Shown: positions 5,300-50,719 of the stretch, one piece after another
How the letters are laid out: each line of letters starts with the position of its first letter
How positions within the stretch are numbered: the first letter of the stretch is position 1
Assembly: GCA_038881895.1 (NCBI GenBank)
Contig: JAVZOV010000001.1
Location: forward strand, 372,001 to 436,000
Length of the DNA stretch: 64,000 bases
From: Thermoprotei archaeon
Lineage (GTDB): Archaea > Thermoproteota > Thermoprotei > Gearchaeales > WAQG01
Direction of reading: 5' to 3'
The notes under the pieces: model-generated
Databases searched by the model: none
What the model was told of the DNA's origin: nothing
What the model saw: the letters and a program-made list of their open reading frames with translations, nothing else
Made by a program: the position numbers and the translations under genes

Positions 5300-5573
5300 T
5301 TTGATGGCGGGGAGTCTCCATCCGTAGGGGTGGGGATGAAGGCCGATAAGCTTATATTTTTTCTCGTTGTATTTATCATTGCTTGGTTGGCAGACCTAGT
5401 AGGCATGGAACAGGCCGAAAGAGACGCCTGCTGAGGGCAAGACCTCCGTAACCCACCTTCCACACAGGATTCCCGAAACGGTCTCACCTGCCGAGACCTC
5501 CGCTGTGGGTGAGTGGAGATCGAGTCTGTCCGTGGAAGCAGGAAGCCACCTGCGAAAGCTGGTGGTAGTTCAC
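5300..5573 (+). mobile_element. structured GC-rich repeat, copy A (omega-RNA-like non-autonomous element)
   Basis: Copy A of a roughly 275-bp repeat also found at 13889-14162 and 50442-50719 (reverse). It begins just after a TTTAAC flank and ends in TAGTTCAC. It is much richer in G and C than its surroundings. Likely hairpins: GGTCTC/GAGACC, closed by CCCAC/GTGGG; a terminal CCACC/GGTGG stem with GC-GAAA-GC tip; and long-range CCTGCT/AGCAGG. The 3' end (GAAGCAGG, hairpin, TAGTTCAC) resembles right ends of IS200/IS605-type TnpB elements. An internal TTATATTTTTT near 5350 could serve as a TATA box for the last about 190 bases. No believable protein is encoded. Confidence 0.75.
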
Positions 5574-5651
5574 GAATACTCATCCTCTAAGAAATAATGT
5601 TTTTTCTAAAATTTTGGAAGCTTAAAGATTAAGGAACTAAGAACCTTAACC

Positions 5652-5676
5652 AACTTTAGTCGTAGAGAACATCAAT
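5652..5676 (+). repeat. short transposon-end scar (ACTTTAGTCG type)
   Basis: The segment ACTTTAGTCGTAGAGAACAT followed by CAAT matches 17751-17775, which is the 3' end of a decayed IS607-type remnant. I read it as a solo right-end scar. Around it (5574-5711) I see no gene. Confidence 0.5.
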
Positions 5677-5711
5677 ATTTGTATCATTTATTCTGAATAA
5701 GTACTAGTGTT

Positions 5712-5945
5712 TTATTCTTCAGTTAAGATATCCATTATAACTCCTTGACCTAAACCGTCTGGATTCCCATTGAATTTTATTTTGATGAAGGACCCTGTTA
5801 TTTCAACTACTTGTCCTTCCCATGTTTTATCTTTATAATCTTTATAAATAACTTTCTTGCCAACTAATTTTTCAAGATTTGTTTCCTCTGATGTCATGGC
5901 TAGGATACTATCATCCTCAAATGAGACTAATATTGCTGTAACCAT
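5712..5945 (-). CDS. conserved small beta-rich protein, function unknown
   Basis: 77 residues, beginning MVTAILVSFEDDSIL. The core LVGKKVIYKDYKDKTWEGQVVE followed by a short turn and IKIKFNGNPDGLGQG alternates hydrophobic residues like a small SH3/KOW-like or OB-type barrel as seen in ribosomal or RNA-binding proteins. I could not match it to a named family. The ATG at 5945 is preceded on the minus strand by GGTGATAGA, a good ribosome-binding motif. It is transcribed toward repeat A and lies downstream of truD on the same strand, with 66 bases between. RNA binding is only a guess from the fold impression. Confidence 0.7.
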   Translation of the reverse strand: MVTAILVSFEDDSILAMTSEETNLEKLVGKKVIYKDYKDKTWEGQVVEITGSFIKIKFNGNPDGLGQGVIMDILTEE

Positions 5946-6011
5946 TCTATCACCAAGCTTTTATTAGATAAAAATAATAAATATTTTTCTTAGGAATGTC
6001 TTGTCTCATGA

Positions 6012-7421
6012 TCAATTTTTATTGATATTAATAATTCCTACGTAGGATAGGTGATTTTTAGGTTTCATAATTTCTCTAAGGAGGTTTGTAGCATAACTTC
6101 CTCTTTTTAGCCTGAACCTAATTGTCATTAATTTACGTCCATTGAAAATGTCATCATTGTATATTTTTACTATTGAAAAGTTTTCGATATTGATGAGTGG
6201 TTGCCTATATCCACCTGTTACGTATAGTTTTTTCTTTAAGGCTGGAACTTTAAAATCTTTGAGCCTTACTTTCTCTTCTGCTAAAATTTTATGTTGTATT
6301 TCTCCTTGTATTCCATCTGCAAGCTTAACAATGTAACCTGGAACTGTTATCACAAGGACTGCTTTTCCTAGTCTGATTAAATTGTTAGCTTCTGAAGTGC
6401 TGATTGTTTTATTTGCGATCAGAATCCTTGTAGATTGGTAACCATGGGAATCTGTTAATGCAATCAGGTCGCCATCAGTTGTCTCGATTAATGATAAACC
6501 GTTACGCACACGTTCGCTGAGAAATTTATTGAAAATATAAGATCCGTATGATTCAACAAAAAGTCTTAATAGGTTCTTTGGTAATCGTTCAAGAGCACCT
6601 ACGTAGTCTTCAGGATGCTTTATTAAATATTTAAGAACAATTCTTTCAAAATGCAATTCTCTTGGCATCACTTTAAGCGTTTTTACGGGATCCATAGTCT
6701 CATCGAATGTTCTGCGCGCTTCAATGTGTGTTTTAGGCTCACCGATAACAGGAGAGCCTATAAATTTCATTACTGCGCTTTCGAAATCACTCTTGACTAT
6801 GTATTTTCCGACTAGATGACTGGATGCTCTAGGTATTCCAAAGCGTTGATATCCATAAAAATTTGCAAGGCCTCCAAGCTCTTCTATTTCTTTAATAATA
6901 CTGAAAATATGATTGGCTAAATCATGTTCAGAGCTACTATCAATATTTCTTATACAGACGGTAAACTGGTTACCGTATAACATTCCAGGTCTTAGAGGAC
7001 CTAAACTGAAACCTGTCCATAGAATTTTAATTTTGCGTAAATTTATCTTTTGTAAATCGCTCGGGTTAATACCCTTGATTGTAAGTCCTTGTGTTATGAC
7101 AGCTCTTCTGTCTTTAATGCCAGCGATACCTATCTGGGATGGTTTTACGTTAAGTTTTTTACAAAGTAATCTTATTGTTTCATGATGATCTAAGCCCCAT
7201 CTTTCAATGATGGTAAACACATAAGGTCCTGTTGTGGGTGAAGGGGGTGGAGTGAAATCTCCTAATAGGCTTGAACGATAAACAATTCCTTGTTCATTTA
7301 TCTCTTCGACGATGAAATCTTCTGTTTTGTACTTTATTATGCCTCCTATTCCTGGTGCTGATGATACATAAAATTCTATACCTAAACTCTTATCGAACTC
7401 TGGTACATTGAAGCTAATCAT
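6012..7421 (-). CDS. truD: tRNA pseudouridine synthase TruD
   Basis: Modifies uridine 13 in tRNA (and in some archaea position 35 of pre-tRNA-Tyr). 469 residues, the archaeal length with the inserted TRUD domain. N-terminal KYKTEDFIVEEI and then GIKDRRAVITQ with the catalytic aspartate at D104; FYGYQRFG near residue 195 is the conserved RNA-binding motif. C-terminal part KRGSYATNLLREIMK is typical. It ends the minus-strand run SIS gene, HAD gene, truD, with 24 bases before truD. The start ATG at 7421 follows an AT-rich spacer with only a weak ribosome-binding motif. Confidence 0.95.
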   Translation of the reverse strand: MISFNVPEFDKSLGIEFYVSSAPGIGGIIKYKTEDFIVEEINEQGIVYRSSLLGDFTPPPSPTTGPYVFTIIERWGLDHHETIRLLCKKLNVKPSQIGIAGIKDRRAVITQGLTIKGINPSDLQKINLRKIKILWTGFSLGPLRPGMLYGNQFTVCIRNIDSSSEHDLANHIFSIIKEIEELGGLANFYGYQRFGIPRASSHLVGKYIVKSDFESAVMKFIGSPVIGEPKTHIEARRTFDETMDPVKTLKVMPRELHFERIVLKYLIKHPEDYVGALERLPKNLLRLFVESYGSYIFNKFLSERVRNGLSLIETTDGDLIALTDSHGYQSTRILIANKTISTSEANNLIRLGKAVLVITVPGYIVKLADGIQGEIQHKILAEEKVRLKDFKVPALKKKLYVTGGYRQPLINIENFSIVKIYNDDIFNGRKLMTIRFRLKRGSYATNLLREIMKPKNHLSYVGIININKN

Positions 7422-7445
7422 CGAAATACTGTCCTTATTTTTTAT

Positions 7446-8129
7446 TTAAGGTAATTTGATTATATCTAACAGTTCTTTTATCGAATTGATTATGACAACA
7501 TTCTGAGGTAGTTGTTTATTCTTATATCCGATCAAGCTTCTGGAGACGTAAACCGTACGTAGACCTATGTTTGCAGCAACAGAGATTTCTTCAGGAACGC
7601 CGGAAACAAATATTACATTGTTCTCAGTTATCTTTAAATTTTGAATAGTATTATGTAAAAACTCTGATGTGAAACCTTGCATTGTGTTTGGGTTCTCCTC
7701 TATAAATACTCCATGAAAAAGGTGATCTAACCCTAGCGCTATGAGCTTTTGCCATTGTTTCACGGGAGGCCCTGATGTCACTACATAAACTTTAATGTTC
7801 TCATCTCTTAATTTCAAAATGGTTTGTATAATGTCTGGATAAGGTTTTAAGTATGCAGAACTGACTTCCCTGTATGCTAAGACGCCTGCTGCAATAATTT
7901 TGGGATCATATTTTAATCCCAGTGTTTCAATAAGTAAATCAAAATGTTTAGGATGGTGATTTCCATACTTTTTTACTATTTCATTAAGTATGTTGTATGC
8001 GAATTCTGCTTCAATTGGTAATCCTTCTGCTATCATAGCTTTTACAGCACTCATTCTAGCCATGCTCATTTGGAGTGTTGTATCATAGAGCGTATCATCT
8101 AATCCAAACAACACAGACTGAACATTCAT
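7446..8129 (-). CDS. HAD-superfamily protein lacking catalytic aspartates (probable pseudo-phosphatase)
   Basis: 227 residues with the HAD fold of the pyrimidine-nucleotidase/TIGR02253-like type. Motif I reads VLFGLDDTLYD, so the nucleophile expected before L10 is Gly9; only the second aspartate (D11) remains. Motif II (VVTSG, residues 116-120) and a motif III lysine (K124 or K129) are present. Motif IV reads FVSGVPEEIS (174-183) where GDxxxxD is usual, so the metal-binding acids are also gone. The reading frame is intact, which suggests a maintained non-enzymatic role. Its ATG overlaps the end of the SIS gene by four bases, so the two are probably co-translated. Confidence 0.82.
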   Translation of the reverse strand: MNVQSVLFGLDDTLYDTTLQMSMARMSAVKAMIAEGLPIEAEFAYNILNEIVKKYGNHHPKHFDLLIETLGLKYDPKIIAAGVLAYREVSSAYLKPYPDIIQTILKLRDENIKVYVVTSGPPVKQWQKLIALGLDHLFHGVFIEENPNTMQGFTSEFLHNTIQNLKITENNVIFVSGVPEEISVAANIGLRTVYVSRSLIGYKNKQLPQNVVIINSIKELLDIIKLP

Positions 8130-9160
8130 ATTACCACCTTCTTAAGCTTCTCAGGTTTATCAGGGTTCAATCCACGTGCAATAGCTAGATAAAACGCAAA
8201 CAACTGTACCGGAATTATTATCAATACTGGCATGAACAACTCCATAATTCTGGGCACTTGAAAATGAAAGTCTGAATTATTCAATTTATTTTCACCCACA
8301 GTTACAGTAAACACATTGAAGCTCTTAAACCTAGTGGCCAAATCCTCACCTTGAATAGCATCATCTGGAGTGCTTAACAACATGAAAATTGGTACTTTCG
8401 GACTTATTAATTGTATTGGCCCATGGAGGAATTCTCTCATAGCGTATCCCTCAGCAATAACACTGCACGTCTCTTTAATTTTAAGAGATGCCTCAAGCGC
8501 AGAAGGATACAACGCTCCACTGCCAAGAATAAAGAAGCCGTCAGATTCTTTTAATTGTAATGCTACTCTAAATGCCATATCCTCATTATCTTTTAATACT
8601 TGTGTCATGAGATCAGGAATTCTGAATAATTCCTCCTTCATATCTTTGTAGCGAGTTAGAAATCCTCTCACATTGGCCAATTCTAATGCAAGAAGGAATA
8701 GAGCAGCTAATTGTGAAACATAACTTTTTGTAGCCGCGATGGCTTTTTCTTCACCAGCATACAAAGGTATTACAACGTCTGATAATTTTGCCAACGTACT
8801 GGAAATATTGTTGGTCACACCAACAATAGTCATGTTCTTTTCTTTGACTTCTCTAACAGAATTTATCACGTCAATGCTCTCACCCGATTGACTAACTGCT
8901 ATCACCACTGATCTTTTTATATTAGGAGATAACCATCTTAAAAACTCTGAAGCTGGTATGGCTGATGCATTAATATCACTTATCCTAAGCAAAGTATACT
9001 GAAAAGAGAGCGATGCATGATAACTTGTTCCACTTCCAATTATATACAAAATATTACCTAACTGTTCATTGATTTGAAAAGCAGTTTTTTTAATTAATTC
9101 ATAATTCATACTAAGTGTTCTAGAAAATGCTATAGGATCTTCGTAGATCTCATTAATCAT
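8126..9160 (-). CDS. SIS-domain sugar isomerase (GlmS C-terminal-like, no glutaminase domain)
   Basis: 344 residues with two SIS domains. Sugar-phosphate binding motifs GSGTSYHA (about 42-49) and SQSGES (about 93-98), then AATKSYVSQL, and in the second domain GSGALYPSALEASLKIKE and FLHGPIQLI. This is the isomerase half of glucosamine-6-phosphate synthase; without the N-terminal glutaminase it probably acts as an ammonia-dependent GlcN-6-P deaminase/isomerase or on a related amino sugar. First gene of a minus-strand operon with the dead HAD protein. The upstream gap (9161-9361) holds AT-rich promoter sequence, including ACTAAAA/TTTTAGT arms at 9209-9229. Confidence 0.85.
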   Translation of the reverse strand: MINEIYEDPIAFSRTLSMNYELIKKTAFQINEQLGNILYIIGSGTSYHASLSFQYTLLRISDINASAIPASEFLRWLSPNIKRSVVIAVSQSGESIDVINSVREVKEKNMTIVGVTNNISSTLAKLSDVVIPLYAGEEKAIAATKSYVSQLAALFLLALELANVRGFLTRYKDMKEELFRIPDLMTQVLKDNEDMAFRVALQLKESDGFFILGSGALYPSALEASLKIKETCSVIAEGYAMREFLHGPIQLISPKVPIFMLLSTPDDAIQGEDLATRFKSFNVFTVTVGENKLNNSDFHFQVPRIMELFMPVLIIIPVQLFAFYLAIARGLNPDKPEKLKKVVI

Positions 9161-9361
9161 TTGATATTCATGTTTTCGTAATGATATAGTACAACACCAA
9201 ACATATTCACTAAAACGTTTTATTTTAGTTTTACTAAAAATGTTAAAGCTTTCTACGAGGACAGCTTAAAGTAATTGATCCCAACTGGATTAGAAGATAA
9301 TTCTTTTATGGACGCTTTCTTAATTTTGTTTTAGTTACAATATTAAGTATGAGAGATCTTT

Positions 9362-11086
9362 CTATGTTGCCTCTTTAAATATAGGTCCTAATTCTAGGAA
9401 TTGTTTTTTGTTGTTAAGGTAATCATTGATTAATTTTACTAGATCTGATACATGAACTCTAACTTGAGCCCATGTATCTCTGTCACGTAAAGTGACTGTG
9501 TTATCCTGTAATGTCTGATAGTCGATAGTTATTGCTATTGGTATTCCAATTTCATCTGCTCTCGCATAAAGGCGTCCTATAAATTCAGTGTCATCATAAA
9601 GAGCATCAATGTTATCTGTTCTTAACAAATTGTAAATTTCTTTAGCTTTTGTGTCTAAGTTATCTCTTGTGACTAAAGGAAATACTGCAACTTTATAGGG
9701 TGCTATATGTTTTGGAATTTTTAAAACAACTCGTCCCTCAATTTCTGTGTAAGCGTTTTCGAGTGTAACATAAACTAGGCGTTCAGCACCAAAAGAAGGT
9801 TCGGCAACATGTGGTATGAATTCTTCAACATTAATTGTTTCTTCCTCTGTAAATATCTTTATCATATTTTTATCAAGTTTTATATTATCGATTTCTATAA
9901 AACCGTTTTTTTCAAGTGACTTTATTATTTCTTCTGGATTCATGGACTGAAGTTTATTATTAATTATTGGTGTTTTGTCTCTTAATATTTTTCCTACGAT
10001 ATCAGTTCTTAAAGTTATTTTATAGTGTTTGATAATTTTTGGTTCTTTAAGTCTTCTATATGCCTTTAAATTTTTACCACTAAATTCCATGTGAGATTTA
10101 AGATCATAATCAGTTCTATATGCATGTCCAGATACTTCTATCCATCCGAAATCTTTTAAATGAACCATCTGATCAAATGTTTGTGATGAGTAATGTGCAC
10201 GTTCATTTGGAGATTTTTCTAGGAAAAGTTGTTTTTCTTTAGGAATTCCGAGACTCTCAACAAAATCTTGACTTATTGCAATGAAATACGCGTTCCATTC
10301 ATTGATTATGATTTTTTCTTTAAGTGCCTCTTTTATGGCTATTTTTATTGGTTCTTTATGATTAACTAATAAGAGGTTAACTACTTTATCTTCTACATTA
10401 TTAAGTAAGTGGCAACTTGGATTATTTGGATCATAGAAAAGTTCAAGTTCCATTATAGTGAATTCACGCATGCGTAATAATCCTTGTCGTGGAGATATTT
10501 CATTTCTCATTACCCTGCCTATTTGCGCAATACCAATTGGTAATTTTTGACCCATTAAGTCGTATATACGTTTAAAATTTATGAACATGCCCTGCGCAGC
10601 TTCAGGTCTACCATACACTATATTACCTGAATATGGTCCTACAGTAGTCTTCATAAGAAGATTGAATATTTGTACTGGGCCAAGAACGCCACCACACTCT
10701 GGGCACCTTATGTTTTTTTCTTTTATTATTTGATTAAGCGCCTCTGCAGATAACCCCTCCGCAGATATATTAGTTATCCCTTCGATTAAATGATCTGCCC
10801 TAAAGATTCTATTACAAGCTGCACATTCAACCATAAAATCTGTGAAATGATCTAGGTGTCCTGATGCTTTAAAAACTGTGTCCGGCATTATTACTGGTGT
10901 CTCTATTTCTATTATAAAATCCTGATGTTGCTCCACAAAAATTTTTCTCCAATGATTCTCAATATTTCTTTTTAACTTTATTCCCAATGGTCCAAAATCT
11001 ATGTAACCTGCTAGTCCTCCGTATATCTCAAATGATTGCCAAAAGAACCCTCTGCGTTTCGCTAATTCCATTATTTTATCATACAT
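9362..11086 (-). CDS. glyS: glycyl-tRNA synthetase
   Basis: Charges tRNA-Gly. Class II alpha2-type enzyme of 574 residues, archaeal/eukaryal form. Motif 2 region GRVMRNEISPRQGLLRMREF with the following MELELFY, motif 3 in FGAERLVYVTLENAY, and a C-terminal anticodon-binding domain starting at HIAPYKVAVFPL. Cys pairs CAAC (about 85-88) and CPECGG (about 133) may bind zinc. The ATG at 11086 has GGTGAGC seven bases upstream. It stands alone, divergent from the surface protein gene. Nothing unusual in length or motifs. Confidence 0.97.
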   Translation of the reverse strand: MYDKIMELAKRRGFFWQSFEIYGGLAGYIDFGPLGIKLKRNIENHWRKIFVEQHQDFIIEIETPVIMPDTVFKASGHLDHFTDFMVECAACNRIFRADHLIEGITNISAEGLSAEALNQIIKEKNIRCPECGGVLGPVQIFNLLMKTTVGPYSGNIVYGRPEAAQGMFINFKRIYDLMGQKLPIGIAQIGRVMRNEISPRQGLLRMREFTIMELELFYDPNNPSCHLLNNVEDKVVNLLLVNHKEPIKIAIKEALKEKIIINEWNAYFIAISQDFVESLGIPKEKQLFLEKSPNERAHYSSQTFDQMVHLKDFGWIEVSGHAYRTDYDLKSHMEFSGKNLKAYRRLKEPKIIKHYKITLRTDIVGKILRDKTPIINNKLQSMNPEEIIKSLEKNGFIEIDNIKLDKNMIKIFTEEETINVEEFIPHVAEPSFGAERLVYVTLENAYTEIEGRVVLKIPKHIAPYKVAVFPLVTRDNLDTKAKEIYNLLRTDNIDALYDDTEFIGRLYARADEIGIPIAITIDYQTLQDNTVTLRDRDTWAQVRVHVSDLVKLINDYLNNKKQFLELGPIFKEAT

Positions 11087-11224
11087 TATTGCTCACCGTT
11101 ATCTGGAATAAGCGTAATCTGTATTCTAATTTATAGTTAACCTTAACAATTCTGAAAGCATTATGCTTTAGATGATTAAAATAGTAAAGTTTATAAAAAT
11201 ACGCGTATGGATATTTTGATACAT

Positions 11225-12985
11225 ATGAGACTGGGAAAAGCTATAATACCTATAGCACTCATAATCATAGCAGCAATCCTAATAATTTATGGATTAACTC
11301 CACAACAAAAACCAACAGAGAAAATAGTTAATGTAAAATATACTGTTAGATTTTATGATAAAGCAGATCACATAGTCATGATACCATTAAATGTGACATT
11401 ATACAAAGGTGCACAAGTGATTTCTAAACTTAATTCTAATAGTACTGGATGGTATAGTACAGAAAAAACAATCCCTCCTAACAATTACACATTAATAGTT
11501 AGGGTCGGAAATCTAACGCTTTATCAGAAAAATGTCAACCTGAACAACAATATTACTGAGAGCAAAGTAGTAATAGATGCATATCCACTGTACGTTAATC
11601 TATACCCAAAAATCGACAACAATACTGCGTACAACATTACTAACGTTGACGCAATAATTTACGCTATGAATGGAACACAGATACTTAAACAATCAATTAG
11701 TGAATCAAAACAAGCAAACGTAATAAACTTTCCTTTAGTGCCAGAAGGAAATTATGTACTCAAAGTTAATTGGTTAGGTATTAATATATACACAAGAAAC
11801 GTAGTAATAAATAATTCCACTAACGTTAATGTGAACGTAACCGGACATTTGATAAGTTTCAAAGTGTATAACCAATATGGGGAACCTTTAAACAACGCTA
11901 CGTTAGAACTCTATTATAACAATTCAAGAGTATTAACTGGTCGTACACTATCCACCAATAGTTATACAATTACTGCCGTGCTCCCAAAATTAAAATATAA
12001 CATCAGCGTTTCTCTTTATGACCTCAAGACAGAAATAAAAGGCGACACATACGTAGATCTCAGAACTTTTACAGGCAAAATCTATAATGTCACAGTCTTA
12101 ATGACTAAGAACATTGAACTGAAAATTCTTAATCCTGACGATTCCATTGCAAACGGTTTGAAGCTAATTGTGAGAAGTAATAACTCAAGTATTATTCCTC
12201 TCACTCTAATTAATAATATAACAAAGCTACCACCATTACCTAGTAATTCAAGAGTGGTTTTATTAGTTTATAGAGCAGACGCATTAGCTTTAAAAGCCAC
12301 ATTAACGGTGCCGCCACCCAGTAACAACACAATAATATTAACATACAAGATTAATGAAGTACCCCTTACGATTACTTTACGTGATATCAATAATGATGAG
12401 ATTTCAAACTTTTCAGGGTCCATCTATTTGATTGACAAATTTAACAATAACAAGATAGTGTATAAAGGCTCGATGAGCATCTTACCGAGTAATTATTTAA
12501 TAATAGTATTAGATAAGATGCCTGATGGAAATATAATCCCAGTATACACTGACAGTAAAATCATTAATATAACCACTAATCAATTAACGTTAATGCTACC
12601 AGTTAACATAAAATTAGATGTGTCGCTTCATGGATTTACGGGTAATATAGAATTAAAATATGTTGGAATAAATAATGACATAGTACCTTACAGATCAGTT
12701 AATAATACGAATAAGGCCTTGTTTATTTTGCCTACTGGTAAATACTTAATAGAAGTGTATAGTAATGGAAAGCTTGTGTACTCTAGGTATATTGTGTTGA
12801 GCAATGACGAAAGCTTAGTAGTGCAATTGATTTCACCGGGCATTATTTCATCAATCGATGTAGAGTTAATAAGAAGTGTCGTATTACTTGCGATTTTAGT
12901 GATGATAGGTTTCTTTTCGGTTAGGTTCTATAGACAATACAAAAAAATAAGAAAGAAAGAACAAAAAGAGAAGGTAAGTGTGTGA
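11225..12985 (+). CDS. membrane-anchored surface protein with carboxypeptidase-regulatory-like repeats
   Basis: About 586 residues. N-terminal membrane segment (GKAIIPIALIIIAAILIIYG), a long extracytoplasmic part, and a C-terminal membrane helix followed by a strongly basic tail. The outer part consists of repeated beta-sandwich-like units of the carboxypeptidase-regulatory/PEGA style (LPPNNYTLIV, VPEGNYVLKVNWLG, LPTGKYLIEVYSNGK). Many N-x-S/T sequons suggest heavy N-glycosylation. The frame opens at 11207, but GTTTATAAAAAT at 11189-11200 is only about 10 bases upstream; a TATA box there fits leaderless translation from ATG 11225. It overlaps or abuts the agmatinase gene. Function unknown; a cell-surface structural or adhesion role is inferred. 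Confidence 0.75.
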   Translation: MRLGKAIIPIALIIIAAILIIYGLTPQQKPTEKIVNVKYTVRFYDKADHIVMIPLNVTLYKGAQVISKLNSNSTGWYSTEKTIPPNNYTLIVRVGNLTLYQKNVNLNNNITESKVVIDAYPLYVNLYPKIDNNTAYNITNVDAIIYAMNGTQILKQSISESKQANVINFPLVPEGNYVLKVNWLGINIYTRNVVINNSTNVNVNVTGHLISFKVYNQYGEPLNNATLELYYNNSRVLTGRTLSTNSYTITAVLPKLKYNISVSLYDLKTEIKGDTYVDLRTFTGKIYNVTVLMTKNIELKILNPDDSIANGLKLIVRSNNSSIIPLTLINNITKLPPLPSNSRVVLLVYRADALALKATLTVPPPSNNTIILTYKINEVPLTITLRDINNDEISNFSGSIYLIDKFNNNKIVYKGSMSILPSNYLIIVLDKMPDGNIIPVYTDSKIINITTNQLTLMLPVNIKLDVSLHGFTGNIELKYVGINNDIVPYRSVNNTNKALFILPTGKYLIEVYSNGKLVYSRYIVLSNDESLVVQLISPGIISSIDVELIRSVVLLAILVMIGFFSVRFYRQYKKIRKKEQKEKVSV

Positions 12986-12999
12986 TCGGTGAGAGGATT

Positions 13000-13887
13000 A
13001 TGGGTTATGAATTTCTTGATCTTTATGTTTCACCAGTAAAACCTAATTTCTCAGGATTTGATGTGGATCGTGATAAGGCAAGATTCATTATAGTAGGTGT
13101 GCCTTTTGATAGTACAACGTCACAACGTCCTGGGGCACGTTTTGGTCCAAAAGCCATTAGAGAAGCATCAATTGGTTTAGAGGGATATAGTTTAAGAAAT
13201 AATAAGTTTCCTGAAGATTTAATGATTCATGACGCTGGGGATCTTTCAGTCCTACACGGTGACTTACGTGAAACACAGAGAAGATTAGAAAATGTAATAA
13301 ATGATATTAAATCAGAAAATAAAATACCCGTAGTAATTGGAGGAGAGCATAGCATAACACTAGCTCCTGTACGAGTATCTAAACCAGAAATTTTAATAGT
13401 ATTTGATGCGCATCTAGATTTACGAAATGAATGGCCTCCAGGCGTTAAAAATAGCCATGCAACAGTGATGAGAAGAATATCTGAATACATTGGATTAAGT
13501 AGCATAATCTTTATCGGATCAAGAGCATACAGTAAAGAAGAATATGAACTAATAAAAAATAGAAAAGTATTAGTATTAGATCCAAAGTATTTGGAAAACA
13601 ATTTCGAGGAAAGCATCCATGCAATCAAAGAAAGGATACACGCAACTAACAATATCTACATAAGTATTGACTTAGATGCATTAGATCCTAGTCAAGCACC
13701 CGGAGTCGGCGACCCTGAACCAGAAGGACTTTCATTAACTATGCTTCTTGATACATTAAATGAAATCACCAAAATAACTAAAAATATTAGCGGGATAGAC
13801 CTGGTTGAACTATCACCACCATACGATCCAGGTTTTACAGCACACGTCGCGGCAAAAATATTATTCGAAGCACTCAGCAGTATTTAA
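13000..13887 (+). CDS. speB: agmatinase / arginase-family ureohydrolase
   Basis: Manganese ureohydrolase, most likely splitting agmatine to putrescine and urea for polyamine synthesis. About 295 residues. Metal motifs in order: GGEHS (114-118), FDAHLDLR (about 136), SIDLDALDPSQAPGVGDPEP (about 221-240). The TTSQRPGARFGPKAIREAS segment is typical of agmatinases. A GTG at 12982 overlaps the preceding stop, but GGTGAGAGG well placed before ATG 13000 decides the start. Substrate is inferred; arginase, guanidinobutyrase or another activity cannot be excluded. Its TAA stop is part of the TTTAAC that flanks repeat copy B. Confidence 0.85.
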   Translation: MGYEFLDLYVSPVKPNFSGFDVDRDKARFIIVGVPFDSTTSQRPGARFGPKAIREASIGLEGYSLRNNKFPEDLMIHDAGDLSVLHGDLRETQRRLENVINDIKSENKIPVVIGGEHSITLAPVRVSKPEILIVFDAHLDLRNEWPPGVKNSHATVMRRISEYIGLSSIIFIGSRAYSKEEYELIKNRKVLVLDPKYLENNFEESIHAIKERIHATNNIYISIDLDALDPSQAPGVGDPEPEGLSLTMLLDTLNEITKITKNISGIDLVELSPPYDPGFTAHVAAKILFEALSSI

Positions 13888-13888
13888 C

Positions 13889-14162
13889 TTTGACGGCGGG
13901 AAGTCTCCATCCGTAGGGGTGGGGATGAAGGCCGATAAGCTTATATTTTTTCTCGTTGTGTTTATCATTGTTTGCTTGGTTGTCAGACCTAGTAGGCATG
14001 GGACAGGCCGAAAGAGAAGCCTGCTGAGGGCAAGACCTCCGTAACCCACCTTCCACACGGGATTCCCGAAACGGTCTCGCCGAGACCTCCGCTGTGGGTG
14101 AGTGGAGATCGAGTCTGTCCGTGGAAGCAGGAAGCCACCTGCGAAAGCTAGTGGTAGTTCAC
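13889..14162 (+). mobile_element. structured GC-rich repeat, copy B (omega-RNA-like non-autonomous element)
   Basis: Second copy, near-identical to copy A and in the same orientation. Left flank TTTAAC includes the stop codon of the agmatinase gene, so the target, not the element, supplied it. Differences from A: the loop of the GGTCTC/GAGACC hairpin is only GCC (4 bases lost), the region before GTCAGACC is longer, and the terminal stem has one mismatch (AGTGG for GGTGG). The 3' end TAGTTCAC is identical, then the sequences of the copies diverge completely. A 14163-14255 gap before the next gene contains its promoter. Confidence 0.75.
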
Positions 14163-14255
14163 TCCGATCTCTCCCAACTCTTTCCTTCTGTAAAAGTACC
14201 ACAAAATATTATTTTGTGATTGATAATGCTTTAAATATTTTTTTACAAAAACAAC

Positions 14256-14624
14256 ATGGTGAGTGTATTGAATAGTAGTATTGTTATGTTATTTTTAATC
14301 GTAATGGGTAACATAATTAATGTAACCAATAATACAAATATTACCACGAATAGTTACAATAATTCTACTAATCCGTATGAATGGCTCGAGAATAAAGTTA
14401 ATTCAATATTTTCTGAAGCTCAGAACTTAACAAAATTAATCCTTACTAGGGTTTTCTATTTTCTGCTTTTGATCGCTCGTCTAATTTATATAAGTTTGGC
14501 TTTAGGCGGTATTTTAGAATGGTTTACTGGAATCTCGCCCTATAAGGGTCGTAGAATGATTATTGGTGCTGCTGTAATAGCATTAGCTGTCGAATTTATT
14601 AATACGTTCATAACATCTTTATGA
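14256..14624 (+). CDS. small membrane protein with three hydrophobic segments
   Basis: 122 residues. N-terminal hydrophobic segment (about 4-20), an Asn/Thr-rich outer stretch with several N-glycosylation sequons, then two membrane helices (about 66-86 and 101-120) separated by ILEWFTGISPYKGRRM. The two-helix end resembles TrbC/VirB2-like pilins only in outline. TTTAAATATT at 14231-14240, about 25 bases before the ATG, suggests a leaderless transcript. It sits alone between repeat B and the Tes homologue. No function assigned. Confidence 0.6.
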   Translation: MVSVLNSSIVMLFLIVMGNIINVTNNTNITTNSYNNSTNPYEWLENKVNSIFSEAQNLTKLILTRVFYFLLLIARLIYISLALGGILEWFTGISPYKGRRMIIGAAVIALAVEFINTFITSL

Positions 14625-16619: not shown

Positions 16620-16828
16620 CGAATAATTGCAATCAATGTAGGGGATAAGAATATAGCAACAAAAGTTGAATTGGTCGATGAAAAAGTAAAGAATCCTAAG
16701 TTTTATGGAAGAGAAGTTAGAGGAATTAGAAGACACCATGATTGGCTTAGGAGAAGACTTTGAAAAAGAAAACTTCTAAAAATGATTAAGAAGATTGGTT
16801 CTAAAGAGAAAAGGAAAGTTAACGATAC
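16620..16828 (+). pseudogene. tnpB: tnpB fragment with nonsense codon (IS200/IS605-like)
   Basis: In one frame the sequence reads RIIAINVGDKNIATKVELVD, then KFYGREVRGIRRHHDWLRRR, an in-frame TGA at about 16760, and KRKLLKMIKKIGSKEKRKVND. This is the RuvC-I region and following arginine-rich helix of a TnpB nuclease; the RuvC-I aspartate of the usual IDLG appears as Asn. Both ends of the gene are missing. Right after it, 16829-16867 is shared with 39262-39300, part of another transposon-derived reading frame. The stretch 16469-16938 otherwise holds only these remnants. Confidence 0.75.
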
Positions 16829-16867
16829 CGTTGTGGGATTCATAGACTTTCGTCCCTTCCCCCTCAC
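16829..16867 (+). repeat. 39-bp fragment shared with 39262-39300
   Basis: CCGTTGTGGGATTCATAGAC and the following CTTTCGTCCCTTCCCCCTCA differ by one base from 39262-39300. There the segment is inside a longer coding trace (PPLWDSWTFVPSPS); here only this piece remains, followed by a CCCCCT/AGGGGG hairpin. Confidence 0.6.
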
Positions 16868-19370: not shown

Positions 19371-19556
19371 ATGGAAGAAGAACTACTTAGACCAAAGGAT
19401 GTCGCAAAGAAGTTCGGTATCTCAGTTAAAACTCTCTGGAAGTGGCAAAGGAAAGGCATTATTAGAGCAGTTAAACTTCCAACTGGTAAGCTCCGCTACC
19501 CAAGGAGCGAGGTTAAGAGATTATGGAGGCAGTTAAAAGCTACAGGATCCCAGTAG
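19371..19556 (+). CDS. helix-turn-helix protein, recombinase-less TnpA
   Basis: 61 residues from ATG 19371. LLRPKDVAKKFGISVKTLWK continuing to WQRKGIIRAVKLPTGKLRYP is a MerR/IS607-type DNA-binding domain. It then ends after EVKRLWRQLKATGSQ, with the last residues overlapping the tnpB start by 34 bases. The full tnpA of the 48-kb element has a similar HTH plus a serine recombinase. So this is either a simple deletion product or a retained DNA-binding regulator of its own element. The longer upstream frame (to 19233) lies outside the element boundary and is ignored. Confidence 0.7.
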   Translation: MEEELLRPKDVAKKFGISVKTLWKWQRKGIIRAVKLPTGKLRYPRSEVKRLWRQLKATGSQ

Positions 19557-20677
19557 ATGTTCCAAAAGATTTAATCGAAGAATACTTCAAAGTTAAGCGG
19601 AAGGCTTTAGACGCAATATTCTCGCACGTTAAAATTTCCGAGAAGGCTCACCTCGAACTCGATAAGAAGGATAGGAAAAGACTTAGGGATGAATTGCTAC
19701 GGGAGTGGAAATACTCAAAGCATTACGTTGATTCAGCAATGAACTCCGTTATCGGATTGGTTAAGGGCTGGATAACCCTTTATAATAGGGGGAGGGCGAA
19801 TGAGCCTCCTAAGATAACTAAGAGGACAGTATATATTAAGAGCACGCTTTTCAGTTTCAGAAACGGCATACTGAAGATAAGCGTAGAGCCTAGTAAGCGG
19901 TATCTTGAGGTTGACTTAAGAAAGTGTTCGTGGATTCCGAGAGACTTTGATAAAGTCGGTGGACTACTTATGACTGAAAGTGAGCTGATAATTACGGTTA
20001 AGAAGAGGGTTGAGCTCAAGGCTGATGAGTGGGCATCATTTGACGTTAACTTAACGAACGTGACGGCGTTCATAGGTGGCGAGATTAAGCGCTATGACTT
20101 AAGAGAGCTCTACCACATCCACAGAACCTATGAAACTAAGCGGCAGAGGATACAAAAGTTATCTAAGATTAAGCCTCTAACCTCAAAGAGACTATTAGAG
20201 AAATACTCTAAGCGTGAGGGGAGTAGAGCCAAGGACTTCATGCACAAGTTAACCACGCAGGTTGCGGGGGAGCTCAAGGAGAAGGACTGCGGAGCAATAC
20301 TTGAAAACCTGAAAGGTATAAAGAGGCGAATCCTCAACAAGTCTAAAGACATGAACAGAAAGCTCTCAAAGTGGAGCGCAAGAGCATTCCAACTCATGCT
20401 TGAATACAAGCTTAAATGGCTTAACTTACCAGTAAAATACGTTAACCCAGCCAACTCATCTAAAACCTGCCCAGTCTGCCCAGGAAGCATGGCTTCCTAT
20501 CTGGGCAGGATAATGAAGTGCGAAGAATGCGGGTTAACAATGGATAGAGATATCATAGCGGTGTTGAACCTTCAGATGCGGGGAATTGGGTTCTCCCCGA
20601 GAGCCCTCAACAAATTAATCGAGAGGGAAGGGTTAAGTAGGAATAAAAGCAACAATTCACCATGCATTCCTACTTAA
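19523..20677 (+). CDS. tnpB: TnpB RNA-guided nuclease of IS607-like element
   Basis: 384 residues, full length. RuvC-I aspartate in SFDVNLTNVTAF (about 174), RuvC-II glutamate in AILENLKGIKRR (about 255), zinc finger CPVCPGSMASYLGRIMKCEE ending CG, and RuvC-III aspartate in MDRDIIAVLNL. All catalytic and zinc residues are present, so it is probably active as an omega-RNA-guided nuclease. The first zinc half reads CPVCP where CxxCG is usual. The stop codon is the last base triplet of a 12-bp hairpin, probably the 3' end of the guide RNA. A C-terminal fragment at 38893-39132 is a close relative. Confidence 0.93.
   Translation: MEAVKSYRIPVDVPKDLIEEYFKVKRKALDAIFSHVKISEKAHLELDKKDRKRLRDELLREWKYSKHYVDSAMNSVIGLVKGWITLYNRGRANEPPKITKRTVYIKSTLFSFRNGILKISVEPSKRYLEVDLRKCSWIPRDFDKVGGLLMTESELIITVKKRVELKADEWASFDVNLTNVTAFIGGEIKRYDLRELYHIHRTYETKRQRIQKLSKIKPLTSKRLLEKYSKREGSRAKDFMHKLTTQVAGELKEKDCGAILENLKGIKRRILNKSKDMNRKLSKWSARAFQLMLEYKLKWLNLPVKYVNPANSSKTCPVCPGSMASYLGRIMKCEECGLTMDRDIIAVLNLQMRGIGFSPRALNKLIEREGLSRNKSNNSPCIPT
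20633..20677 (+). other. 12-bp perfect hairpin over the tnpB stop codon
   Basis: TTAAGTAGGAAT (20633-20644) and ATTCCTACTTAA (20666-20677) form a perfect stem with a 21-nt loop; the TAA stop is in the second arm. The 46-kb element has a different-sequence hairpin (46868-46902) at the same place. Likely the guide-RNA 3' structure or recombinase end, given its conserved position. Confidence 0.65.
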
Positions 20678-39132: not shown

Positions 39133-39308
39133 CTGAGCGAATCGCCAAGCTTATTAATGATGTTTTTAGTGGATCGTTCTTATACGCTTATAGTGGGTTC
39201 TGCTTTAACAGTGTCAGAACTTGGTATGATAAAGAGTTACCTAAAAGAACAGGTAATCCACCGTTGTGGGATTCATGGACTTTCGTCCCTTCCCCCTCAA
39301 TTTCATAG
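39123..39308 (+). pseudogene. fragment of an unidentified transposon protein
   Basis: An open frame without a start reads DFDSERIAKLINDVFSGSFL, YAYSGFCFNSVRTWYDKELP, KRTGNPPLWDSWTFVPSPSIS and stops. Pieces of it recur at 16829-16867 and 32362-32414, so it belongs to a dispersed element. I do not recognise the family. From 39309 to 39531 I see only weak traces and no gene. Confidence 0.55.
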
Positions 39309-40850: not shown

Positions 40851-40864
40851 GTTAGTGAGGTTCT

Positions 40865-42482: not shown

Positions 42483-42554
42483 ATTCATCACATTATTAGT
42501 AGTATAACATAATAGATTTAAATTTTTTGAAAATAAAATAGAAATGGTGAAAGA

Positions 42555-44132: not shown

Positions 44133-44230
44133 AACTAAAGAAGAATGTCCCTTAATTAAATGTTGACGCTGTCCTCAATGGCTCATCATAATTAACATCA
44201 GATGTCGATTATTTATTATTGGTGTCAATC

Positions 44231-44257
44231 ATCTCCTGCTAAAGGAGGAGAGCATCA
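44231..44257 (+). repeat. short transposon-end hairpin scar (AGCATCA type)
   Basis: ATCTCCTGCTAAAGGAGGAG then AGCATCA: a CTCCT/AGGAG hairpin followed by AGCATCA, like 23097-23124. It lies in the gap between nnr and nfeD. Confidence 0.45.
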
Positions 44258-44302
44258 GTTATCTCTCTTATTGTACAATGAAGGTATTCATGAGTTTTAG
44301 GT

Positions 44303-45658: not shown

Positions 45659-45701
45659 TCCTATTCGATTTTAAGAATATTTTTGTTAAATTTAAATGTT
45701 T

Positions 45702-46523
45702 CTACATTGTTTGTTTCTCTTCTTTTTCTCTTTCTTTGTTGTGAAATGCCTTAGTAAAGGCTGCTATTTCTCCTGGTGTTGTAAATGTTTGTGACGTAAC
45801 TACTATTAAGTTACGTTCCCTTGCTATTTCTGTTAGTGTTTGTAATTCTCGTAGCCTCATGGCCATAGCATGTTCTTCATATTGTTTTGCTGCTTCAGCC
45901 ATGATTTTTGATGCTTGTAATTCACCCTCCGCCATGATAACTCTGGATCGTTTTTCTCGTTCAGCTTCAGCTTGTTTAGCCATTGCTCTTAACATTGCTT
46001 CAGGTAATGCAACATCTTTTATAGTAACCGCTGTAACCTTAATCCCCCACGGGTCAGTAACGACGTCTAATAATACTTGCAATCTTTTATTCAATTCTTC
46101 TCGTTTTGTGAGCAGTTCATCTAGTTCAACCTGACCTAAGACATCTCTTAGTGTAGTTTGTGCAAGAAGTTGGCATGCATAATTATAATCTGTAACTGTA
46201 GTTACAGCTTTTACAGGATCGAAAACTCTATAATATATAACAGCATCTACATCAACGCTTACATTATCCTTCGTAACAATTCTTTGTTTTGGAACATCAG
46301 CAACTAAAACCCTTAAATCAACTTTGAAGAATTTGTCAAAAATCGGTATTATGAAGAAGAGACCAGGCCCCTTCGCTCCTAGTAATCTTCCTAATCTAAA
46401 TATAACGGCTCTCTCATATTCTTTCACAATTTTAATACTAGCTGAAAATATTATCAGTATTATAACAATTAAGAGTATTATAAACATTAATTCTAGTAGA
46501 GCTTCTGGTAGATCGAAAGGCAT
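45702..46523 (-). CDS. stomatin-like SPFH/band 7 protein
   Basis: 273 residues. N-terminal membrane helix (EALLELMFIILLIVIILIIF), then the SPFH core: VKEYERAVIFRLGRLLGAKG, RIVTKDNVSVDVDAVIYYRV, and a coiled-coil region AMAKQAEAEREKRSRVIMAE to ending with a charged tail. Forms membrane oligomers. Partner of NfeD, first in the two-gene operon. Start ATG 46523; AATATT-rich promoter just upstream. Confidence 0.94.
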   Translation of the reverse strand: MPFDLPEALLELMFIILLIVIILIIFSASIKIVKEYERAVIFRLGRLLGAKGPGLFFIIPIFDKFFKVDLRVLVADVPKQRIVTKDNVSVDVDAVIYYRVFDPVKAVTTVTDYNYACQLLAQTTLRDVLGQVELDELLTKREELNKRLQVLLDVVTDPWGIKVTAVTIKDVALPEAMLRAMAKQAEAEREKRSRVIMAEGELQASKIMAEAAKQYEEHAMAMRLRELQTLTEIARERNLIVVTSQTFTTPGEIAAFTKAFHNKEREKEEKQTM

Positions 46524-46645
46524 ACTAAGAATAATATTCGTAAGTAATTAATAAACCTATCTACTATCACAATGATGATTTCTATCTCCAAGTGCAACTT
46601 TTAACAAATAAAACTTTATTAGTATTCTTATGATACTCTAAACGT

Positions 46646-46860
46646 ATGCGATTTTTATGGTATTATGAGAAGCTATGGAAGAAAGAAAAAATGTGTAAAA
46701 TTTGTGGATCTAAGTCTACTACAATAAGTGAGGTATTAGGAGTTTGCGGGGACTGCATTAAAAAATATCCTGATAAAGCTCTCAATATTGCAATGAAATC
46801 ACATTCCTTAAGCAGGGATAGATTCAATCTTCCTAGAGAACCGCCAAGAAGTGCCAAAGG
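46646..46860 (+). pseudogene. radical SAM gene, 5' part, interrupted by IS607
   Basis: Encodes MCKICGSKSTTISEVLGVCG then DCIKKYPDKALNIAMKSHSL and NLPREPPRSAKG. This is the N-terminal zinc-ribbon-like part of an archaeal PflA/COG1180-COG1313-type radical SAM protein, which normally continues PP..x.GVKC. The reading is cut at GG 46859-46860 by the IS607 element; the rest resumes at 48716. The start could be ATG 46646 or the internal ATG 46691. Removing the element restores GCC AAA GGC GTT AAA TGC in frame, so the insertion looks recent. Confidence 0.85.
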
Positions 46861-46867
46861 GTTCTGA

Positions 46868-46902
46868 ACTAAGTATGGATACGTATAGAATCCATACTTA
46901 GT
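46868..46902 (-). other. 13-bp perfect hairpin over the tnpB stop codon
   Basis: ACTAAGTATGGAT (46868-46880) and ATCCATACTTAGT (46890-46902), loop of nine bases. The tnpB stop (46869-46871) is inside the distal arm. Position, not sequence, is shared with the hairpin at 20633-20677. Confidence 0.7.
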
Positions 46903-48080
46903 CCTTGAGCTTCAACGCTCTCGTCCTCCTCAGGGTTCATTGGAGGGCTCATCGAGCTCTGCTCCTTTCGGGGTGAACCCATGAATCCCCACATCCTAAG
47001 GAACGTTTTCCAAATGTTTATTGATGCATTCCTCTGTCTATCGATTACAAGTCCGCATTTTGGGCACTTGAAGACTGCTCCCCTTAGGTCTTTGTTGTAG
47101 TACCCGCATCTGGAGCAGGTCTTCGAGGTGCCCTTCGCCTTCACATATATGGTAGCATAACCGTTCCACGCAGATTTGTATTCCACGTACTTTTGCAGTT
47201 TGATGTAATTGTGCTTGCTGTTCTGCCTGTTCATGCTCCTACTCTTCGTCCTAGCAATCCTTTCCTTGAACCCCCTCAGGTCCTCGAAGACGTTTGTCCT
47301 GTTGGATAACTGTTTAGCCAGCTTGTGCAGCGCGTCGTCAACCCTGTTCCTCTCCCTCGAGCAGTACTTCTCCAGGAGCTTCTTCCTCGTTTTTCCGGGT
47401 AGCTTCTGGATGACCCTTCTCTTCAGCTCGTACGTTCTGTGGATAGTGTAGATTTCCTTCAAGCTTATCGAGTAATGCTTTTCACCATCAAAGCTGTCCA
47501 AGGTTAAGAGGTTCACGTCCCATGCTATTGGGTCTTTAATCTTTAGCTCCACCTCTCTTCTAACAGTAACTATGAACCTGTCCTGTTTAAGTATGAGTTC
47601 ACCGAGCTCCAATCCCCTTATCCTATCCCAGCACCACGCCTTCCTCAAATCTATGGTTAAGTTTTCTTCGTAAGGTTTCACTGAAATCCTGAGAACCCCG
47701 TTCCTGTAACTGTAGAGGGTTTCCTTAACTCTAACGAACTTCCTCCTCAGTTCAGGCCTACTTCTTCCTGCCCGCCCACGAAGGTACCTCTTCCTCCACG
47801 ATTCAAGTACGGAATAGGCCTGTTTTATCGCTGAGTCCACGTAATGCTTGGAGTAAACCCATCCTCTGAGGTGCTTGTCTCTAAGCTTTTTCCTAAAAGC
47901 CTTATCTTTCCTCAGAAACGGTATAAGCCTCTTCCCATTCCTATTCCATGCAATGTTCCTCCATAAATCTTCCAAGATAGAGTTTAAGACGCGCATGTAA
48001 TCCTCTATAAGCTCACTTACCTCAAGGTTATATGGTATTGAGTACGCTTTAACTAACAAGCTTCCTGACACCTTCAACAA
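46869..48080 (-). CDS. tnpB: TnpB RNA-guided nuclease of the complete IS607
   Basis: 403 residues. RuvC-I aspartate in [12 protein letters not shown], RuvC-II glutamate in [12 protein letters not shown], zinc finger [20 protein letters not shown] ending CG, and RuvC-III aspartate in [13 protein letters not shown]. All key residues are present. Its N-terminus overlaps tnpA, indicating translational coupling. It is distantly related to the 19.5-kb TnpB, with different finger and C-terminus, so the two elements are different subtypes although their ends are alike. The guide RNA would lie over and after the 3' end. Confidence 0.94.
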
Positions 48081-48657
48081 CCTCCCTATACTTATGGCTT
48101 CTCATTCCGTAGAGCTTTCCAGCGAAATGAGCAACTATGGTGATTAAGTCTTCCACAAGCTCTTCATGAGGTGCCTTCTCTTCATGGTTTATTACTTCTA
48201 TTTCTGTTCCGAAAGTTGTGAACATTTTCTTTAAAGTTTCAAAACCAAATCTCGTGAACCTGTCCTCGTAAGCGATTATCAGCTTGGATATTTTCCTTTC
48301 TGAAACCATATCTAAGAGTTTCAGGAAGTTTTTTCTGTTTTCGTTAAGTCCAGAACCAATATCCGTTAAAACTTGAATTTCACCGTAACCTTTCTCCTTA
48401 GCGTAACTTGAAATGAGCTGTTTCTGCCTTTCAAGGTCATCCTTTTGTGTTGAAGATGAAACCCTTGCATACCCTACAATAATTCTTTCCTCTCTTAAAC
48501 CAAGGATGCGTTTTATTTCACTTTCAGGGATCCTCCTACGTCCTCCAAGGGTTCTGACACACCTAATCTTGCCCTGCCTATCCCATTGCTGAATGGTCCA
48601 GGTGGTGACTCCAAGAAGCTTCTTCGCCTCTTTGATTGTATAGAGCTTTTCGGACAT
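48049..48657 (-). CDS. tnpA: IS607-family serine recombinase (TnpA)
   Basis: About 202 residues from ATG 48657, which AGGAG precedes; the frame extends upstream to 48693 but past the ribosome-binding motif. MerR-like HTH ([20 protein letters not shown]) followed by the serine recombinase domain: catalytic Ser in [41 protein letters not shown]. Closely similar to the TnpA at 16939-17571. It would catalyse excision and integration at GG dinucleotides and probably also serves the recombinase-less element. Confidence 0.94.
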
Positions 48658-48715
48658 CAATATTCTCCTATATCTACCAATATTTAAACACATCTATTCT
48701 GAAACTGCTGAAAGA

Positions 48716-49663
48716 GGCGTTAAATGCAGAGTTTGTGCTAATGAATGTTCAATACCTGATGGTGAACTTGGTTTTTGTGGCTTAACCGAGAACGTGAAAG
48801 GATTAATAAGATATAGGATTAAAGTTCCAGAGGAAGCTATTCTCGAATGGTATTATGATCCGCATCCAACCAATTGTGTTGCATGGTGGTTTTGTCCAGG
48901 AAGTACAGGACTCGGTTATCCTAAGTATGCTGTTAGACAAGGAACTGAAAAGGGTTATGCGAACCTTGCTGTTTTTTATGGAACCTGTAATTTAGATTGT
49001 TTATTTTGCCAAAATTGGTTTTATCGTGAGAACATTCGAAATCTTCACCCACGAGTTTCTATTTCAGAACTGATCAATCATATAACATATTATGTAACCT
49101 GTGTATGCTTTTTTGGTGGTGATCCATCACCTCAGATAATGCACGCATTAAATGTTTGTAAACTTATTAGAGAGAAATCTCTGAAAGAAAAAAGAATTAT
49201 TAGAATATGCTGGGAAACTAATGGACTTATGAACAAAGTGTTTTTAAACTTAGCGTTAAAGTACTCCTTAGAAAGCGGTGGTATGATGAAATTCGACCTG
49301 AAAGCCTGGAATCCTGCATTGTATAGAAGTTTGTGCGGCGTGGATGGTACTGTTGTTTATGATAATTTTAAGTATGCCTCCAATTTTATAAAAGATAGAC
49401 CTGAAGTCCCGTTATTAACAGCTAGTACTTTACTGGTACCAGGTTATATCGATGAGGATGAAATTAGAAATATCGCAAGGTTTATTGCAGACATTAACTC
49501 AGAAATACCGTACTCACTTTTAGCTTTCCATCCCGAATACATGCTAATAGATTTGCCACCAACTAGTAGAACTCATGCAGAAAGATGCGTGAAAGCTGCT
49601 AAGAATGAAGGATTAAAAAATGTTCATTTAGGTAATCCATGGATTTTAAGTGATTATTACTAA
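48716..49663 (+). pseudogene. radical SAM gene, 3' part, interrupted by IS607
   Basis: From GGC at 48716 the frame reads GVKCRVCANECSIPDGELGF, CGLTENVKGLIRYRIKVP and on to the radical SAM cluster motif CNLDCLFCQNW (CX3CX2C), FFGGDPSPQIMHALNVC, WETNGLMNKVF. This is the glycyl-radical-activase-like/COG1313 group. The N-terminal third is on the other side of the IS607 element. A GTG at 48794 could restart translation and make a 289-residue protein with an intact cluster, so partial function is not excluded. Natural substrate unknown. Confidence 0.85.
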
Positions 49664-49935
49664 CTAAACATCATTTCAAGAAGACAAGATTCGTCATATT
49701 CATATCAGCACTGCTTGAAACTTCTTCATCCTGAATTTAGTTTAATGAGAGCAGAAAGGTGAATAACATGGGATTTACAAAATAAATAAAAATATGGCAA
49801 TAAAATATCACAGACTTAAAAGTAAAGCTGAAAATTTAAAAATATCTTTGACTGAAAATTTTAAAATCTGTAATGATAATAAATTAAATAAATAAATTTA
49901 TATACTTCAGAAAAGCTTTAAAATTGGGTATAAAA

Positions 49936-50076
49936 ATGAAAAAGGGCAGAAGCTATATAATACTCATGTACACTGAAATCATTAGCGAATTGTCCAAAGA
50001 AGAACTAGAAAAGGAAATAGAAAATGGCAAATTAAAAATAGAAAAACCTATAATAAAAGTGCTAGAAAAACCATAA
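49936..50076 (+). CDS. possible 46-residue charged protein
   Basis: MKKGRSYIILMYTEIISELS then KEELEKEIENGKLKIEKPII and KVLEKP. The product has a strand-like start followed by a Lys/Glu-rich helix. TTTATATACTTC at about 49900 is a promoter-like sequence. There is no good ribosome-binding motif, but a leaderless mRNA is possible. The 272 bases before it (49664-49935) hold nothing I can identify. No family recognised. Confidence 0.4.
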   Translation: MKKGRSYIILMYTEIISELSKEELEKEIENGKLKIEKPIIKVLEKP

Positions 50077-50097
50077 ACTATTCACCATACTTTCATG

Positions 50098-50125
50098 ATC
50101 CTCACCTTAAAAGCGAGACTTCAAC
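50098..50125 (-). repeat. short transposon-end scar and decayed sequence
   Basis: Minus strand: GTTGAAGTCTCGCTTTTAAG then GTGAGGAT, like 28396-28419. Between here and 50441, on the minus strand, there are short open stretches (RTWKILKIEMQEPLTLVMER) broken by stops that may be a dead gene; I cannot assign them. Confidence 0.4.
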
Positions 50126-50441
50126 ATAAAGGTTGAGAAGGAATCGAAACTCAGTTTAAACTTAAAGTGTGAATCTTCCAGTTACAAGCTCCTTTCGAGA
50201 CATACTTTAATATCCTCGACTGAAACACCCTTAGTGCCATGTGGATCTCTATATTAATCTATTCTAAAGCTGCTAGCTACATTGAATCTCTCCATAACTA
50301 AGGTAAGTGGTTCTTGCATTTCAATCTTTAAGATCTTCCAAGTTCTGGATGTTATCAAAACAGAACTTGTTGTGAGTGTATTCTAAGTTATCTTTTTTTA
50401 TTAATTAATTTAACTTGAGTAGTTTATTAAAAAATTTTGCA

Positions 50442-50719
50442 GTGAACTACCACCAGCTTTCGCAGGTGGCTTCCTGCTTCCACGGACAGACTCGATCTCC
50501 ACTCACCCACAGCGGAGGTCTCGGCAGGTGAGACCGTTTCGGGAATCCCGTGTGGAAGGTGGGTTACGGAGGTCTTGCCCTCAGCAGTCTTCTCTTTCAG
50601 CCTGTCCCATGCCTACTAGGTCTGCCAACCAAGCAGACAATGATAAACACAACGAGAAAAAATATAAGCTTATCGGCCTTCATCCCCACACTTACGGATG
50701 AGGACTCCCCGCCGACTGT
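50442..50719 (-). mobile_element. structured GC-rich repeat, copy C (omega-RNA-like non-autonomous element)
   Basis: Third copy, reverse orientation. Read on the minus strand it follows TATATTTAAC, starts ACAGTCGGCGGGG and ends TAGTTCAC. The 5' 40 bases are the most diverged among copies; the GGTCTC/GAGACC stem, CCCAC/GTGGG pairing and terminal GAAA-capped hairpin are as in copy A. CCTGCT has become ACTGCT, weakening that long-range pairing by one base pair. It lies head to head with the phosphodiesterase gene. Confidence 0.75.

Follow-up and report, generated by a model that had tools for sequence, protein, structure and literature searches.

The 64,000-nucleotide window analysed here (contig JAVZOV010000001.1, positions 372,001 to 436,000, from a Thermoprotei archaeon) carries three copies of a short repeated element, which we interpret as a nonautonomous IS200/IS605-type element whose RNA probably guides, in trans, a TnpB encoded elsewhere. 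In the best explanation that we can offer, this solo element of thermophilic archaea begins with a left end, followed by a TATA-like box of its own, a structured RNA of ~190 nt and a right end, and the RNA most likely belongs to the TnpB omega-RNA class, with an extra domain of ~75 nt. Since the element contains no gene, but only a folded RNA related to the TnpB guide RNA, both its transposase and its RNA-guided nuclease are probably borrowed from larger relatives. The mobility of the element is well supported and the conserved fold of its RNA strongly so, and we hold both with high confidence.

Copies, target site and mobility of the solo element

A search of the host genome (assembly of 1.75 Mb in 7 contigs, 97% complete) with a window copy identified 14 full copies, three of them in the window, with 93–100% identity to the query and E values from 2.9e-117 down to 1.9e-146, far beyond chance. 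The initial annotation had described a near-identical three-copy repeat of ~275 bp; its coordinates were right within a base or two, and the number of copies has to be raised. Copy A (C...TTCAC) occupies positions 5299–5573 (+ strand, 275 bp), copy B positions 13888–14162 (+ strand, 275 bp) and copy C positions 50442–50720 (− strand, 279 bp). The marked GC enrichment already pointed out is also evident, with 0.53–0.55 in the element and 0.59–0.61 in its RNA part versus 0.349 in the window, and the right end of IS200/IS605 form was correctly recognised: all 14 copies end with a hairpin followed by TAGTTCAC, with TTCAC at the 3' end.

We additionally noticed an invariant TTTAA directly 5' of every copy (TTTAAC in 14/14), the insertion target and probable TAM, located at 5294–5298 (+) for copy A, 13883–13887 (+) for copy B and 50721–50725 (−) for copy C. 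No target duplication was found at any of the 14 copies, and both flanks differ from copy to copy; this arrangement is the IS200/IS605 geometry. A fixed five-letter target without duplication and the absence of a transposase gene place the element in the nonautonomous class of this family, and subterminal hairpins at both ends in common with autonomous Y1 (tnpA) elements were observed in G081 and G277, hosts other than that of the window. The insertion of copy B (at 13883–13888) coincides exactly with the end of an arginase-family gene (12982–13887), whose TAA stop is provided by the TTTAA target.

Homologues are also present on mobile replicons. The Sulfolobus islandicus plasmids pARN4 and pHVE14 carry one homologue of 321 bp each, located after TTTAA. 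The joined flanks of the pARN4 copy correspond to contiguous sequence in NC_006423, which we take to be pARN3 (505/505 bases, 98.0%), and are also contiguous, at 88.5%, in a plasmid of S. islandicus Y.N.15.51. An empty site, as the initial annotation had proposed to look for in relatives, does therefore exist and, since the homologue is missing from it, insertion was precise and left no duplication. No other plasmid of the collection carries the locus of the pHVE14 copy, and no empty site was found for it. Further homologues were identified in viruses of hot springs, among them Acidianus tailed spindle virus, and in IMG/VR viral contigs (up to 3 per contig); the hosts named in the records are Candidatus Methanomethylicales, Nitrososphaeria and Brockarchaeota MAGs, besides the Sulfolobus/Acidianus plasmids and virus.

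No transposase or other gene was found within the solo element, in agreement with the earlier statement that it lacks a credible open reading frame. Its RNA half includes an in-frame relic of the TnpB C-terminal tail (...VEAGSHLRKLVVVH; compare VEAGSPLRKRGVVH in the TnpB at L080), the frame of which is disrupted by 2- or 4-nt indels in 5/14 copies, and we thus rejected a coding function. We also rejected the tnpB at C2:406251–407815 as the parent of a simple deletion, because the sequence there is a solo copy that has diverged (76%) and been interrupted by the insertion of an IS607-like element with a TnpB of 384 aa. Members of this 384-aa family (window 19523–20677 and relatives) are many-copy IS607-like TnpB elements, with ends GCCGT[TG]GTCA (left) and CAGAACCC (right) and a first open reading frame that apparently encodes a MerR-type HTH protein without a recombinase domain. 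A TATA-like box is present in all 14 solo copies, ~33 bp upstream of the 5' hairpin (CTTATATTT at 13940–13948 (+) in copy B), and may act as the RNA's own promoter.

RNA structure and relation to the TnpB omega-RNA

The omega-RNA-like structured core spans positions 5402–5573 (+; GGCATGG...TTCAC) in copy A, 13995–14162 (+) in copy B and 50442–50613 (−) in copy C. We aligned by sequence 30 diverse long-form solo RNAs (at least 145 nt; alignment A4, mean column identity 72%) and observed pairing in 95.5% of cells and compensatory changes at 29 of 50 pairs (203 cells), values that are favoured by the derivation of the structure from the very alignment on which it was tested and that lie far above both controls: the pairing was attained in 0/500 shuffles and fell to 41–49% when partners were slid, and compensatory cells numbered 67 on average after shuffling and 15–48 after sliding. 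Covariation among further copies, on which the initial annotation had made its case depend, is thus evident. Where the consensus pair is Watson-Crick, the sense strand shows more G.U than A.C (79:35), which points to an RNA transcribed in the direction of TTCAC and not to a DNA structure. The folding energy of single sequences was not exceptional (z = −1.22) and was set aside as uninformative. No Rfam family matched at or above its gathering score; a known RNA family was therefore rejected as the identity of the solo RNA, and the match to an unrelated family that had been named as a possible refutation did not appear.

It is general knowledge of the IS200/IS605 family that the element ends suffice for Y1 transposition. 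The solo element could then be a plain nonautonomous element (MITE/PATE), in which only the ends matter, TnpA acts in trans and the RNA body is a functionless relic of the tnpB 3' end; short ends-only IS605 elements are known (PMC7290912) and the frame of the TnpB tail persists. We consider this unlikely, since the pairing and the compensatory cells, many of which are interior and not terminal, were obtained among sequences with a mean column identity of 72%, and since an interior domain is among the best conserved parts in every lineage, whereas a relic would decay.

The relation to omega-RNA becomes clear in a covariance model built from 13 solo copies (from the host genome and from Methanomethylicales, Nitrososphaeria and Brockarchaeota MAGs), which recovers tnpB-linked omega-RNAs (75.5 bits at L080, among others). 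Judged from sequence and modelled structure, the solo RNA is homologous to TnpB omega-RNA, in support of the initial proposal of a solo omega-RNA element whose nuclease is encoded elsewhere. Common to both kinds of RNA are a 5' stem-loop, whose loop lies around GGGACWG, a central stem, a closing stem CCTGC/GCAGG, a 3' hairpin and TTCAC. The 5' stem of Sulfolobales-type genomes is inverted as a whole between the two kinds, with GGG/CCC in tnpB-linked and CCC/GGG in solo RNAs around a conserved loop. In the solo RNA the apical hairpin of the tnpB-linked form is replaced by the conserved interior domain of ~75 nt (CTCCGTAACC..CTTCCACACGG..AACGG..GRRACCTCCGCTGTGGGTGA..GGATC).

With up to seven candidates scored per genome, 47 of the 398 genomes searched within the phylum gave matches to the model, the long-form RNAs being found in families f1, f17, f22, f23, f24, f29, f31 and a few others. 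Among 72 matches from these candidates that were checked for an adjacent tnpB, none of the 56 long forms had one beside it, and 13 of the 16 short forms (88–131 nt) were linked to tnpB. Where TTTAAC was found, it lies 73–168 nt upstream of the long-form RNA, which leaves no space for a gene. Because of this limit on candidates per genome, TnpB elements related to P0001, the TnpB encoded at L080, were additionally sought in 15 genomes; those omega-RNAs that were read at these elements are of the short kind. Being encoded at the tnpB 3' end, one of the marks of a TnpB omega-RNA, applies to no long-form copy checked, and for this reason the solo RNA was classed as a variant of TnpB omega-RNA. Tentatively, and with rather more doubt than conviction, we suggest that the expanded RNA may represent a lineage of its own, of ancient origin, whose selfish elements consist of RNA only and live as parasites of TnpB. 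A guide RNA would then be all that the transposon carries, and the extra domain would give it an advantage, for instance by being loaded preferentially, by being more stable or by recruiting another protein.

TnpB and TnpA partners and a proposed guiding role in trans

No TnpB with a matching 3' end was found inside the window, in line with the initial annotation, and the search for one that it had suggested succeeded 3.2 kb beyond, where the tnpB element C1:439212–440554 follows the same TTTAA and has left and right ends 91% and 88% identical to those of the solo element. Its TnpB (P0001, 382 aa) matches OrfB_IS605. This protein (L080:1201–2349 (−), G000:C1:439203–440348) belongs to a TnpB clade, present in five genomes (relatives L178–L181, L190 and L200), that has lost the Zn-ribbon cysteines, in a stretch about 20 residues shorter, and retains D, E and D where a RuvC site would have them; the clade is possibly still active.

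The solo 3' end best matches the TnpB omega-RNA end of its own genome in 6/10 genomes, and that of a close relative in 3 more. Right ends track those of the local TnpB elements, with a single hairpin and TAGTTCAC in the host genome and G081, TAGCTCAC in G185 and G111, and a double hairpin in G277, G306 and relatives, and within one genome the left end of the solo element is nearly identical to that of full IS605 elements. A Y1 tnpA adjoins the related tnpB in G081, G379, G277, G306 and G296; the full tnpA+tnpB element of G277 has 1728 bp and ends nearly identical to those of the long-form solos of that genome. In the host genome (as represented by an assembly 97% complete) one Y1 transposase was found, on a small contig, and its element has a right end of a different type. 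Two solo-bearing genomes, G084 and G357, showed no relative of the P0001-type TnpB above the cut-off, and G232, G340 and G396 have distant TnpBs only (about 32%).

That the solo ends follow the local IS605 elements points to dependence on transposon proteins. Together with the presence of copies on viruses, plasmids and at unrelated sites, this speaks against a host-domesticated family of regulatory RNA genes, spread by transposition and independent of TnpB, to which we give hardly any credence even though the RNA is highly conserved, has its own TATA-like box and finds a parallel in the PATE of a haloarchaeal virus-host system, which is expressed as ncRNA (PMC10544981).

The S. islandicus IS605 TnpB has TTTAA as TAM, a right end TTCAC and a guide that begins immediately after UUCAC (PMC11043419, PMC10640517). 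The solo layout agrees: the target is TTTAA, UUCAC closes the RNA, and the flank changes from copy to copy. By analogy with the published Sulfolobus TnpB work (PMC11043419), the downstream flanks would act as guides, predicted at 5574–5593 (+) for copy A, 14163–14182 (+), directly after TTCAC, for copy B and 50422–50441 (−) for copy C. TnpB binding and cleavage next to the TAM have been published for the omega-RNAs of tnpB elements (PMC11043419, PMC10640517), and we consider an equivalent guide function of the solo RNA, in trans via TnpB, to be likely. No guide matches were found within the window besides each copy's own flank.

We propose the following mechanism. The Y1 transposase (TnpA) of full-length relatives would excise the solo element and insert it 3' of TTTAA. 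Transcription of the RNA would be driven by the TATA-like box and would continue past TTCAC into the flank. A TnpB produced elsewhere would take up this RNA in trans, with the flank as guide, and would then cut the donor site left empty (TTTAA plus flank), and repair from the sister copy would restore the element. TnpB is thought to retain IS200/IS605 elements in the genome in this way, by cutting the site that they leave. Alternatively, the RNA could be a decoy or inhibitor of TnpB that competes with the cis omega-RNA and shields solo or other copies from cutting without any guiding. The extra domain is specific to TnpB-less elements and, in the host genome, 14 solos face one intact L080-type tnpB element, as such a role might lead one to expect; nevertheless, the element keeps its TAM, right end and guide geometry in full, none of which a decoy would require, and we regard this possibility as very improbable. 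If guiding in trans is correct, a widespread tnpB-less family under selection for a guide-type RNA, in which compensatory changes occur and the ends track the local TnpB, would mean that the service of TnpB is usable in trans and would explain the persistence of minimal elements. The family would also supply guide RNAs that naturally stand apart from their nuclease and share a new conserved domain, testable with thermophilic TnpBs that are already active.

Known systems and other TnpB-related elements of the host

SMN1 of S. islandicus is a nonautonomous element of 320 bp that depends on ISC1733 (PMC3718332; Berkner and Lipps 2007, described therein). The pARN4 and pHVE14 homologues differ from it by one base pair in length (321 bp) and are likewise nonautonomous, in dependence on an ISC1733-type transposase. 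Since the 1728-bp element that shares the G277 genome with long-form solos fits ISC1733, on which SMN1 relies, the Sulfolobales members are very probably SMN1, as judged from length and mobilising element rather than from the SMN1 (REN1H1) sequence itself. In the literature we found SMN1 described neither as a structured RNA or omega-RNA nor with relatives beyond Sulfolobales, and nothing direct on RNA-bearing MITEs linked to TnpB.

The solo RNA shares TAM TTTAA, right end TTCAC, 3' hairpin and guide position with the omega-RNA/reRNA of S. islandicus TnpB1 and TnpB7 (PMC10640517, PMC11043419), and central stem and 5' stem-loop with the tnpB-linked RNAs of the same genomes, with which it was compared directly. 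It differs from them in lying outside and away from tnpB, in the domain that takes the place of the apical hairpin, in an extra 5' hairpin and in its own TATA-like box. PATEs (palindrome-associated transposable elements) are similarly tnpB-less IS605 derivatives (about 270–490 bp); a Halanaerobium PATE-like element retains the tnpB 3' end (PMC7290912) and a haloarchaeal PATE is transcribed as ncRNA (PMC10544981), but those cited were described in single hosts, whereas the solo RNA family spans many archaeal families with covariation. What is new relative to the known nonautonomous IS200/IS605 elements is the cargo, a conserved guide-type RNA. Standalone IscB omega-RNAs, reportedly described by Altae-Tran and colleagues in 2021, are also guide-type RNA loci away from the nuclease gene, but they are bacterial and belong to IscB, not TnpB.

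The host genome contains about 60 tnpB genes or fragments of several families, the single Y1 transposase and about 10 serine recombinases. One open frame of 621 aa (L073:462–2327 (+), G000:C3:48955–50502) combines a serine-recombinase domain with a following TnpB with Zn ribbon, apparently a TnpA-TnpB fusion. A second tnpB-less omega-RNA element, of another subfamily, is present in two near-identical copies of ~245 bp (L085:722–983 and L086; G000:C5:102744–102983 and C2:93506), and retains the final portion of tnpB (NRDLNRAINI), with TTCAC again at its end. In the window, a 40-bp repeat (16827–16866 and 39260–39299, 98% identical) resembles the right end of a further TnpB family (L041, L075), and both copies are possible relics of TnpB elements.
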